DNA from: Anaerolineales bacterium
GTDB taxonomy: Bacteria > Chloroflexota > Anaerolineae > Anaerolineales > UBA11579
Length of the DNA: 64,000 bases
Reading direction: 5' to 3'
Assembly: GCA_021463845.1 (NCBI GenBank)
Contig: JAJTXV010000001.1
Location: 1 to 64,000, forward strand
A program made the translations under genes and the position numbers. The notes under the pieces were generated by a model. It did no database searches, had not been told where the DNA came from, and saw only the letters and a program-made list of their open reading frames with translations. This document shows positions 20,899 to 23,498 of this stretch, in pieces (position 1 is the stretch's first letter; each line of letters starts with the position of its first letter).

Positions 20899-20926
20899 TT
20901 GTAACAGCCATGCAAGCGGCTATAAT
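20899..20926 (+). promoter_or_regulatory. Promoter of the GAF-ANTAR gene, leaderless
   Basis: TTGTAA (20899-20904) and a perfect TATAAT (20921-20926) are 16 bases apart. The GTG start at 20935 lies 8 bases after the -10, so the message probably begins at the start codon. Confidence 0.65.
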
Positions 20927-20934
20927 CCGTGCCC

Positions 20935-21648
20935 GTGACGCAAGACGAAGTTGCCAAGCTGCAAAAAGAGCTGGCCCTGCTCTACCGGGTGACCCGCGAC
21001 GTATTTCGCCTGGAGCTCGACGAAGTCCTCAAAGAGATAGTTTCTGTGGCCGAGGAGGTCAGTGCGGCTGACTCGGTGCTGGTGTATGTGGTCTCGGGCA
21101 GCGCCAGAGACCTGGTGCTGCGTGCCTCCAAGAACCCGCACCCGGCCCTGCTGCAGCAAGTCAGCCTGAAGCAAGGGGAGGGCATTACTGGCTGGGTGGC
21201 CAGCCAGCAGCAGCCCGTGGCGCTGGATCAGGGCGCCGGCCAGGACCCCCGTTTCAAACACTTCCGCAACTTGCCAGAAGACCGCTACGAAGCCTTCCTC
21301 TCGGTGCCCATCATTGGCAAGCGTGGAGTGGTGGGCGTCATTAACGTCCAGCACCAGCAGCCCCATGCTCACTCTGAGATGGAAGTCAATCTGCTTACTG
21401 CCGTGGGCCGTCTGGTCGGCGCGGCCGTGGAAAATGCCCTGCTTATCGAAGAGACCCTCGCACTCAAGGAAGCTTTGGAGTTGCGCAAACTGGTCGAGCG
21501 CGCCAAGGGCATCCTGATGAAACGCCGCAGCCTGGATGAAGAAGAGGCCTATAAGCTCATCCAGCGAGAAAGCATGGACCGCCGTAAGTCCCTCAAGGAG
21601 ATCTGCGAGGCGATCCTGCTGATGGATCAGCTGGAACCCAAGCAGTAG
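20935..21648 (+). CDS. GAF-ANTAR RNA-binding antiterminator, probable regulator of glnA
   Basis: ANTAR proteins bind pairs of hexaloop RNA hairpins and prevent intrinsic termination. Residues ~15-170 form a GAF sensor domain (LKQGEGITGWVA, FLSVPIIGKRGVVGVINV). Residues ~183-235 form the ANTAR helices (LVERAKGILMKRRSLDEEEA and KSLKEICEAILLMD). No receiver or histidine-kinase domain is present, so sensing is presumably direct, through a ligand of the GAF domain. The GTG at 20935 is preferred since a -10 lies 8 bases upstream. A GTG at 20929 is possible. It is followed by glnA, whose leader has a matching RNA target. Confidence 0.87.
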   Translation: MTQDEVAKLQKELALLYRVTRDVFRLELDEVLKEIVSVAEEVSAADSVLVYVVSGSARDLVLRASKNPHPALLQQVSLKQGEGITGWVASQQQPVALDQGAGQDPRFKHFRNLPEDRYEAFLSVPIIGKRGVVGVINVQHQQPHAHSEMEVNLLTAVGRLVGAAVENALLIEETLALKEALELRKLVERAKGILMKRRSLDEEEAYKLIQRESMDRRKSLKEICEAILLMDQLEPKQ

Positions 21649-21670
21649 TGTTTGCGCTTGGATTTGCCTG

Positions 21671-21699
21671 TTGACAAGCGTCTGGAATTTTCGTACTAT
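21671..21699 (+). promoter_or_regulatory. glnA promoter
   Basis: TTGACA (21671-21676) and TACTAT (21694-21699) are 17 bases apart. Transcription would begin near 21706, exactly where the first regulatory hairpin starts. Confidence 0.75.
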
Positions 21700-21705
21700 C
21701 ATTTC

Positions 21706-21790
21706 TTATTCGCAACGGCGCGGATAACTAAATACTAGGAAGACAATGGAGTCTCCCGAGGGTGTATTTGCCACCTCGGGAGACTTTTTT
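21706..21790 (+). promoter_or_regulatory. ANTAR-responsive attenuator in the glnA leader
   Basis: Hairpin P1 (21706-21727) has an 8-bp stem with one G-U pair and hexaloop AACGGC. Hairpin P2 (21738-21757) has hexaloop AATGGA with one A-C mismatch in its stem. Both loops have A at position 1 and G at position 4, the known ANTAR recognition bases. The 3' strand of P2 (21751-21757) is also the 5' arm of an 11-bp terminator hairpin (21751-21761 with 21774-21784) followed by T6. P2 and the terminator are therefore mutually exclusive. Confidence 0.88.
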
Positions 21791-21814
21791 GTTGCCCAAC
21801 ATCAAGGAGCTTGA

Positions 21815-23251
21815 ATGGCACTGCCCGCGAACATCGAGAAGTTGATCAAGACCCACTCCCCCAAAATGGTAGACGTGCGTTTTACAGACCCGCTCGGGGT
21901 CTGGCAGCACTGCTCAGTACCCATTGATGAACTTGAAGGCGCGCTCAAAAGCGGCATTGGTTTTGACGGCTCAAGCATCAAAGGCTTCCAGCAGATCTAT
22001 GACTCGGATTTGTTGCTGACACTGCAGCCTGATAGCGCCCAGCTGGATCCGTTCTACCAGGTGCCCACGCTCACTTTCATCGCCACCATCCATGACCCGG
22101 AGCAGGGCAAGCGTTACAGTCGTGACCCGCGCTACATTGCCGAGAAGGCTGAGGCCTTCTTGAAGGAAAGCGGCATCGCCGAGACCAGCTATTGGGGTCC
22201 AGAGGCCGAGTTCTTCTTGTTCTCACATCTCTCGTACTCCATCGAGCCGCACAGCATGGGCTTTGACATTGATAGCCCCGAGGCCAGCTGGAACACCGGC
22301 GCCCGCGAGGACATGACCAACCTCGGCTACCGCGTGCCCACCAAGGGCGGCTATTTCCCCGTGGCTCCGGTGGATACCTTGCAGGATGTGCGCAGTGAGA
22401 TCGCATTGACCCTGGATGCCCTTGGCGCCAAGGTCGAGATGCACCATCACGAAGTTGCCTCAGCCGGGCAGTGCGAAGTGGATCTGCGCTTTGACAGTCT
22501 GGTCTCCATGGCAGACAAGCTGCTCACCTACAAATACGTGGTTCGCAATGTCGCCAAGGCCCACGGCCTCACCGCCACTTTCATGCCCAAGCCGTTGTTT
22601 GGTGATAACGGCTCTGGCATGCATGTCCACAACAGCCTGTGGAGCGGCGGCAAGAACCTGTTCTTCGGCAAGGGTTCGTATGCCGAGCTGTCTGAACTGG
22701 CCCTGCATTACATCGGCGGCATCCTCACCCATGTCGACAGCTTACTAGCCTTCTGCGCTCCCACCACCAACTCTTACCGTCGCCTGGTGCCTCACTACGA
22801 AGCCCCGGTCAACGTAGCCTTCTCCAAGCGCAACCGCAGCGCTATCGTGCGTATCCCCATGTATGCCAGCGGCGAAGAGAACGCCAAAGCCAAGCGCATT
22901 GAATTCCGCGCCCCGGATCCGACTGCCAACCCGTACCTGGCTTTCTCAGCCATCCTGATGGCCGGCCTGGATGGCGTCAAGCGCAAGATCGATCCCACCA
23001 AGGCTGGCTATGGCCCGCTCGACAAGAACATCTGGGAGCTTGGCGAGGAAGAGAAGCAGGGCATCCGCAGTGTGCCCGGCAGCCTCAACGAGAGCGTGGC
23101 CGCACTCGAAAAAGACCACGACTATCTACTCGAAGGTGGCGTATTCACCGAAGATGTTCTCACCATGTGGAAAGACTTGAAGCAAAGCGAGATCCACGAA
23201 GTTGCCCTGCGCCCATCCCCCTACGAATTCCACCTTTATTCAGCCATCTAG
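21815..23251 (+). CDS. glnA: Glutamine synthetase, type I
   Basis: This enzyme makes glutamine from glutamate, ammonia and ATP as a dodecamer. The 478-residue sequence has the beta-Grasp segment FDGSSIKGF, the EAEFFLF metal site near 130-136, MHHHEVASAGQCEVD at 209-223, GDNGSGMHVH at 263-272 and NRSAIVRIP at 340-348. The position equivalent to the adenylylated tyrosine of GSI-beta enzymes is W407 (KNIWELGEEE), so GlnE-type covalent control should be impossible. That fits control at the RNA level by the attenuator directly upstream. AAGGAG precedes ATG 21815. Confidence 0.96.
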   Translation: MALPANIEKLIKTHSPKMVDVRFTDPLGVWQHCSVPIDELEGALKSGIGFDGSSIKGFQQIYDSDLLLTLQPDSAQLDPFYQVPTLTFIATIHDPEQGKRYSRDPRYIAEKAEAFLKESGIAETSYWGPEAEFFLFSHLSYSIEPHSMGFDIDSPEASWNTGAREDMTNLGYRVPTKGGYFPVAPVDTLQDVRSEIALTLDALGAKVEMHHHEVASAGQCEVDLRFDSLVSMADKLLTYKYVVRNVAKAHGLTATFMPKPLFGDNGSGMHVHNSLWSGGKNLFFGKGSYAELSELALHYIGGILTHVDSLLAFCAPTTNSYRRLVPHYEAPVNVAFSKRNRSAIVRIPMYASGEENAKAKRIEFRAPDPTANPYLAFSAILMAGLDGVKRKIDPTKAGYGPLDKNIWELGEEEKQGIRSVPGSLNESVAALEKDHDYLLEGGVFTEDVLTMWKDLKQSEIHEVALRPSPYEFHLYSAI

Positions 23252-23265
23252 CTCACTCCAAGCAA

Positions 23266-23299
23266 TAAAAAGCCTCGCTCTTAGAGCGAGGCTTTTTTG
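23266..23299 (+). terminator. Intrinsic terminator of glnA
   Basis: The hairpin agcctcgct/agcgaggct is followed by T6 directly after the gene. Confidence 0.88.
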
Positions 23300-23435
23300 T
23301 TGCTTGCATCTTCTTTAAACGAACGCGTTTGTCCAGTAGCTTGACGCGCCCTTGCGCTGGGATGTGGTTGAAGTTATAGATGCCAGCATGAGCTGCATCC
23401 CGCCCGGCCGCGGTTTCACCCCAGCCAAGTTCTGT

Positions 23436-23492
23436 GCAAAGTTGTTACTTATTAGTTTTAACCCCCTCCCTGTTAAAAACTAATAACTTTGC
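23436..23492. repeat. AT-rich imperfect inverted repeat
   Basis: The arms 23436-23462 and 23472-23492 both read gcaaagtt...attagttt(t)taac toward a C-rich loop. One arm carries a 6-7-base insertion. The AT-rich sequence contrasts with its surroundings. It lies between the convergent glnA and channel genes and could be a small mobile-element remnant or a terminator. The stretch 23300-23435 shows nothing recognisable. Confidence 0.6.
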
Positions 23493-23498
23493 AGTGGG

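Follow-up and report, generated by a model that had tools for sequence, protein, structure and literature searches.

A GAF-ANTAR gene and a two-hairpin terminator leader in front of glnA: a candidate antitermination switch in an Anaerolineales bacterium and in Patescibacteria

The window considered here, i.e. the whole 64-kb stretch of Anaerolineales DNA that was analysed, carries between positions 20899 and 23300 a compact locus on the plus strand, in which a promoter, a gene for a GAF-ANTAR protein, a second promoter, two hairpins termed P1 and P2, an intrinsic terminator, an AAGGAG motif, the glutamine synthetase gene glnA and a further terminator follow each other (Table 1). The locus begins with the -35 box of the GAF-ANTAR gene's own promoter. 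For this gene, a start at GTG 20935 is more likely than one at 20929, and as its -10 box TATAAT ends 8 nt before that GTG (20921-20935 in all), the mRNA may be leaderless. NCBIfam places the product of glnA with the type I glutamate-ammonia ligases. The space that separates glnA from the following gene holds an imperfect 20-nt inverted repeat (85%) with a 19-nt loop at 23435-23493.

Table 1. Features of the glnA locus in window coordinates.
Feature	Position	Strand	Details and basis
GAF-ANTAR gene promoter, TTGTAA-16-TATAAT	20899..20926	+	10/12 consensus matches; -35 box at 20899
GAF-ANTAR regulator gene	20935..21648	+	Pfam, AlphaFold2 model, start codon aligned with orthologues
glnA promoter, sigma-70-type, TTGACA-17-TACTAT	21671..21699	+	TTGACA 21671-21676, TACTAT 21694-21699
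Hairpin P1	21706..21727	+	hexaloop AACGGC 21714-21719; sequence, folding, covariation
Hairpin P2 (proposed antiterminator)	21741..21754	+	hexaloop AATGGA 21745-21750; sequence, folding, alignment
Intrinsic terminator	21751..21790	+	arms 21751-21761 / 21774-21784 (11 bp), T-run 21785-21790 (six T)
AAGGAG, ribosome-binding site of glnA	21804..21809	+	sequence
glnA, type I glutamine synthetase, 478 aa	21815..23251	+	Pfam; NCBIfam TIGR00653, 596 bits
Intrinsic terminator 3' of glnA	23267..23297	+	

The leader of glnA contains P1 as TTATTCGC-AACGGC-GCGGATAA with a stem of 8 bp, and P2 as AGAC-AATGGA-GTCT with a stem of 4 bp that is continued by GG/CC past one mismatch. A preliminary description of this DNA had read A1 and G4 in both hexaloops, which is exact, as are the positions it gave for them and for the terminator, and it had placed P1 at the predicted transcription start, which agrees with P1 beginning 6 nt 3' of the -10 box TACTAT. 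Also the seven bases that P2 had been said to share with the 5' arm of the 11-bp terminator were found again: GTCTCCC (21751-21757) is common to the 3' side of P2 and to that arm. The pattern of the ANTAR dual hexaloop RNAs, i.e. two hairpins of at least 3 bp whose hexaloops have A1 and G4, is present in this leader exactly, and the hairpins end about 50 nt 5' of the ribosome-binding site of glnA. The full 85-nt leader folds into the terminator state (-35 kcal/mol, z -5.7), whereas a leader truncated 5' of the terminator's 3' arm folds as P1 plus P2, and the default state of the leader is thus likely 'off', with an antiterminator that must be helped. Single hairpins with A..G.. hexaloops and at least 4 bp are common, with 85 and 83 on the two strands of the 64 kb; two such hairpins with a terminator that overlaps the second occur only once in the window, namely in the glnA leader, and the same ordered arrangement was found once in 60 simulated 64-kb sequences when both strands were counted. 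The hairpin-terminator arrangement is real and far above chance. An Rfam search of the leader, glutamine riboswitches included, gave no match over threshold, and the sub-threshold matches were at chance level; a known riboswitch or Rfam element was ruled out, as no match exceeded its gathering score and none came close.

A covariance search for tandem A1/G4 hairpins before glnA and beside a GAF-ANTAR gene, which the preliminary description had proposed as a check, turned out positive, with hexaloops and stem pairing conserved in relatives. A covariance model (R1) was built from 13 leaders, and 22 leaders, among which these 13 training leaders are counted, were then aligned with it. G4 is invariant in both loops of all 22 leaders and A1 is present in 40 of the 44 loops (21 and 19 of 22; the other four have G), whereas the loop positions 3, 5 and 6 are variable. 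At the eight modelled stem pairs, 99.4% of the cells pair, compared with 90.3% after shuffling and 26 to 53% after sliding, and these counts lean toward the structure of the model because the alignment was fitted to it. In P1, both-sided changes were found at three of the four inner pairs (20 distinct leaders). Three of the four P2 pairs never vary, hence there is no covariation support for P2; such an invariance is expected if the same bases also serve the terminator, and by itself it is no evidence for P2. RNAalifold recovered the same two stems on the 22-leader alignment. The 3' arm of P2 lies within the terminator in all 22 leaders, of which 21 were recognised by script and one (L123), where a T-run in the loop misled the script, was judged by eye, and P2 and the terminator are mutually exclusive in every one of them. 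A TTGACA-17/18-TAnnAT promoter precedes 19 of the 22 leaders, with P1 lying 5 to 17 nt 3' of the -10 box, and the length of the P1-P2 linker varies by group.

The glnA leader of a Roizmanbacteria genome (L015) is an exception to the two-hairpin rule, having P2 and the terminator without a clear P1. More distant GAF-ANTAR genes before glnA (L105 and L109/L119) are without a clear terminator; at L105 (G555), where glnA follows the distant GAF-ANTAR gene, two hexaloop hairpins end just 5' of the start codon, an arrangement hinting at translational control. In Gottesmanbacteria (L083 ~1501, G321:C130), a promoter, two hexaloop hairpins and a terminator occur in identical layout with no clear gene behind them, and the loops, AATTGC and AACTAA, have a T at position 4 where G stands elsewhere, so that this may be a decayed or altered target. 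At L114 (1501-1539; G368:C1:1056379-1056417), two ANTAR-type hairpins overlap a terminator right 3' of a D-alanyl-D-alanine carboxypeptidase-like gene. This match (E 1.4e-6) was rejected as marking a regulated gene, as it has neither a promoter nor a co-directional gene behind it, but it still forms one of the 22 rows; the RNA is possibly a decoy or a coincidence.

The gene upstream of glnA had been described as coding for an ANTAR protein with a GAF domain, and Pfam bears this out with 75.1 bits for ANTAR (PF03861, gathering score 27.3) and 68 bits for GAF. By Pfam, the GAF is the only sensor domain, and a receiver is absent. An AlphaFold2 model based on 30 sequences, orthologues and homologues taken together (mean pLDDT 89.9, pTM 0.78) consists of an N-terminal helix, the GAF domain, a 51-residue helix and a three-helix ANTAR domain. 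In EutV, Arg142, Lys149 and Glu160 hold G4, on which Tyr164 stacks (PMC8934654). The equivalents of the three former residues are invariant in 19 of 19 aligned orthologues, and at the place of Tyr164, 15 of them have Tyr and four have Phe. The contact set that was mapped comprises Arg142, Lys143, Lys147, Lys149, Glu160, Tyr164, Arg168, Met172, Asn173, Arg175 and Arg177 of EutV; seven of these 11 residues are identical in the window's protein, in which Lys147 is replaced by Arg, Arg168 by Gln, Asn173 by Asp and Arg177 by Ser.

Orthologues of the regulator were found 21 times; seven belong to the window's family and 14, at 55-65% identity, to Microgenomates (Patescibacteria), including Candidatus Gottesmanbacteria and Roizmanbacteria. 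For 20 of the 21, the contig also carries glnA, at most about 2 kb further downstream and usually as the adjoining gene, and the 21st orthologue is at a contig end in a genome whose glnA, on another contig, carries the leader. At L007, a 1-kb insertion splits the regulator from glnA, which has kept the leader, and at L015 there is a small gene between the two. Among the 24 genomes of the window's family, the leader is found in all seven that have the protein (E 5.5e-10 or better), and in the 17 without it the covariance search gave no leader match below about E 0.046. Of 374 Microgenomates genomes, 14 bear an orthologue (that of G471 is cut off by the contig end), and the leader was detected in 12 of these at E 0.001 or better, the misses being G327 (P2 only) and G423 (E 0.004). 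No leader was detected at E 0.001 in eight further Microgenomates genomes with a more distant GAF-ANTAR protein, and among the about 350 without any GAF-ANTAR match there is a single leader match, inside coding sequence. Within the window's genus, a glutamine synthetase is encoded in each of the six genomes that have the protein, and in the five without it (G005, G006, G007, G009 and G012, some assembled into as few as one to three contigs) no Pfam Gln-synt_C gene was found; these organisms may import glutamine or make it otherwise. As those genus members that lack the protein also lack glnA altogether, the co-occurrence there is partly a matter of the whole cassette being gained or lost, and it is not independent evidence for regulation.

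In the window's genome, there is only one ANTAR gene, and glnA is its only strong leader target, the next best covariance match (E 0.40) having been taken as noise. Extra leader matches that fall within coding sequence were rejected for that reason, both in G015 and in G014 (E 0.003 to 0.03) as well as in G506 (E 8e-4). Gottesmanbacteria G321 has a second leader (L077, E 2.2e-6) with promoter, both hairpins and terminator, located directly 5' of a gene that was named by eye, from its sequence, as an ammonium transporter gene. More remote relatives from family f42 of the window's class (37-41% identical to the window's protein) were rejected as glnA systems; at most of their loci (L040-L048) the neighbours of the GAF-ANTAR gene are not glnA but genes for an FTR1-like iron permease and for an MntR/IdeR-like regulator, and perhaps iron or manganese is what this ANTAR system deals with.

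The glutamine synthetases behind the leader fall into two clades that are separated by long, fully supported branches. The first contains the window's enzyme, those of its genus and those of the Patescibacteria G494, G321 and G398, and the second most of the Microgenomates enzymes. The window's glnA is 72% identical to that of G494, with which it is grouped at 100/100 support, and shares only 37-52% identity with the remaining enzymes of the family to which it belongs. In the tree of the regulators, those of the window's group form one clade amid the orthologues from Patescibacteria. A horizontal transfer of the cassette between the phyla is the simplest reading of these trees, and with both of them rooted at midpoint only, it perhaps went out from Patescibacteria.

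It is thought probable, at roughly 85%, that the GAF-ANTAR protein is the dedicated antitermination factor of glnA, and it is its membership in the ANTAR family that points to RNA binding and antitermination. Transcription would start at or just 5' of P1. With the regulator inactive, the strong hairpin at 21751-21784 would form and RNA polymerase would halt at the T-run. When nitrogen is scarce, the GAF domain would switch the dimer to an RNA-binding state, the two ANTAR domains of the dimer would clamp the hexaloops of P1 and P2 via the invariant G4, and as P2 is held, GTCTCCC would be withheld from the terminator and glnA be transcribed. No partner kinase and no NasS-like sensor was seen by eye among the ORFs around the GAF-ANTAR gene, and a one-component regulator that senses its signal directly is plausible.

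As to this signal, the closest counterpart of the GAF domain, by sequence and by fold, is found in EI-Ntr (PtsP). In the sequence profile comparison, 3ci6 scores E 1.9e-34, tied with 3e0y (a Geobacter GAF domain), and by fold it ranks first in Foldseek and in VIA-align (Z 22.1, rmsd 2.0 over 156 residues), followed there by 3trc (Z 21.5) and then by a Z of 19.4. The first NCBIfam match of the regulator is PRK11061. A PII gene was detected in none of 11 genomes of the window's genus by a search that was positive in 13 of 14 controls, and this common nitrogen sensor thus seems to be absent from the genus. For Sinorhizobium meliloti, binding of glutamine by the EI-Ntr GAF has been reported, and in Caulobacter this domain has been linked to glutamine inhibition (PMC4848567), from which glutamine suggests itself by homology as an uncertain candidate for the ligand, acting as the off signal; such a kinship is no proof of the same ligand. 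Tentatively, and as a serious possibility rather than a probable one, the system may be a PII-independent switch in which an EI-Ntr-type GAF senses glutamine directly and the ANTAR domain of the same protein opens the terminator of glnA and, in one lineage, of an ammonium transporter gene, with the cassette travelling between Patescibacteria and the window's phylum.

The hairpins may also be the ANTAR target while the GAF reads something else, i.e. 2-oxoglutarate, a cyclic nucleotide, redox or free methionine sulfoxide, or mainly dimerises. This can well be imagined, if at somewhat less than an even chance, since GAF domains as a class bind many ligands, GAFs that bind cAMP or cGMP and fRMsr turn up further down among the structural matches, and the second NCBIfam match of the regulator is NifA. 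The GAF of NifA is linked to 2-oxoglutarate. However, the top matches of known identity, in sequence as in fold, are the EI-Ntr GAFs that are reported to bind glutamine (PMC4848567), and the genes behind the leaders are glnA and that of an ammonium transporter. It appears quite unlikely that the sign is reversed or the level a different one, so that the protein represses, for example through a block of translation or a more stable terminator, or has translation as its main point of action. Many actinobacterial ANTAR RNAs indeed overlap the ribosome-binding site (PMC8164766), and the distant homologues before glnA have their hexaloop hairpins near the start codon and no clear terminator (L105), but the window's hairpins end well 5' of the ribosome-binding site and overlap a strong terminator, and P2 and terminator exclude each other in each of the 22 leaders.

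Very unlikely is also a leader that acts without protein, be it by simple attenuation or as a riboswitch for a small molecule, with the ANTAR gene working elsewhere: the competition of P2 and the terminator can attenuate by itself, but no Rfam family comes near threshold, the ANTAR-specific G4 is kept in 22 of 22 leaders while positions 3, 5 and 6 vary, leader and protein co-occur in two phyla, and the window's genome offers the protein no other strong leader. That the conservation reflects recent shared descent or contaminated metagenome bins instead of selection is hardly credible. Most of the genomes compared are MAGs, and the window's glnA is close to one from Patescibacteria; against this, orthologues that are only 55-65% identical between groups, compensatory changes in P1 and group-specific P1-P2 linker lengths leave contamination no explanation, the cassette is present in G011, a relative assembled as a single contig of 2.24 Mb, and the leader stands alike before glutamine synthetase genes of two deep clades.

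The preliminary description had supposed that the system may be undescribed, and this stands for the GAF form and for its lineages: in the open-access literature, with subscription journals mostly outside, no paper was found on a GAF-ANTAR protein with glnA and none on ANTAR in Patescibacteria. It does not stand for the type of leader, as leaders of the ANTAR type that precede genes for glutamine synthetase, glutamate synthase, PII and ammonium transporters have been published (Ramesh 2012, PMC3369931; commentary PMC3369936), namely from Actinobacteria, Bacteroidetes, Firmicutes and Proteobacteria. These are of the same RNA class and have the same target functions, whereas no GAF form was assigned there, and as of 2012 no ANTAR protein with GAF was characterised (PMC3369931). 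As of 2020, two one-component ANTAR proteins were, NasR and PAL (PMC7496416). New are the GAF-sensing form with its putative RNA target, its lineages, the two deeply different glutamine synthetases, the apparent transfer between phyla and the fact that the window's genus has no PII gene that could be detected.

The class of GAF-ANTAR proteins is recognised, and the window's system gives one of them a defined putative RNA partner and target, together with a strong guess for the signal, possibly glutamine, that can now be tested. It is a candidate for nitrogen control in lineages of which the gene regulation is poorly known, i.e. in the ultra-small Patescibacteria and in a genus without detectable PII. 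Sensor and two-hairpin leader, having the same form in both groups, would make a portable on/off switch for nitrogen assimilation, and they would be a clear case of a cis-acting RNA and its trans-acting factor moving jointly between phyla and being joined to two different glutamine synthetases.

Among the known systems, NitR of Clostridium saccharobutylicum is a receiver-type response regulator. In PMC6316151, which cites Stutz 2007, it is an ANTAR protein that induces GS/GOGAT genes under nitrogen limitation by antitermination, much as is proposed for the window's protein and glnA; it is described in that paper only as an ANTAR-family RNA-binding regulator and belongs to another phylum, whereas the window's protein has a GAF where a receiver would stand. 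The RNA resembles that of EutV, with two A1/G4 hexaloop hairpins of which the second overlaps the terminator, and the contact residues are largely kept (PMC3369931, PMC8934654), but EutV is the phosphorylated response regulator of the EutVW two-component system and answers ethanolamine, whereas the window's protein has neither a receiver nor an adjoining kinase. Like NasR (PMC7496416), the window's protein would be a one-component regulator with a sensor fused to ANTAR and a nitrogen operon as its target; NasR, however, has a NIT domain, nitrate and the target nasF where the window's system has a GAF and glnA. The closest relative of this GAF, that of EI-Ntr (PtsP; PDB 3ci6, 3trc), is a reported glutamine binder (PMC4848567) whose output is a PEP-dependent autophosphorylation, whereas the predicted output of the window's protein is RNA binding.
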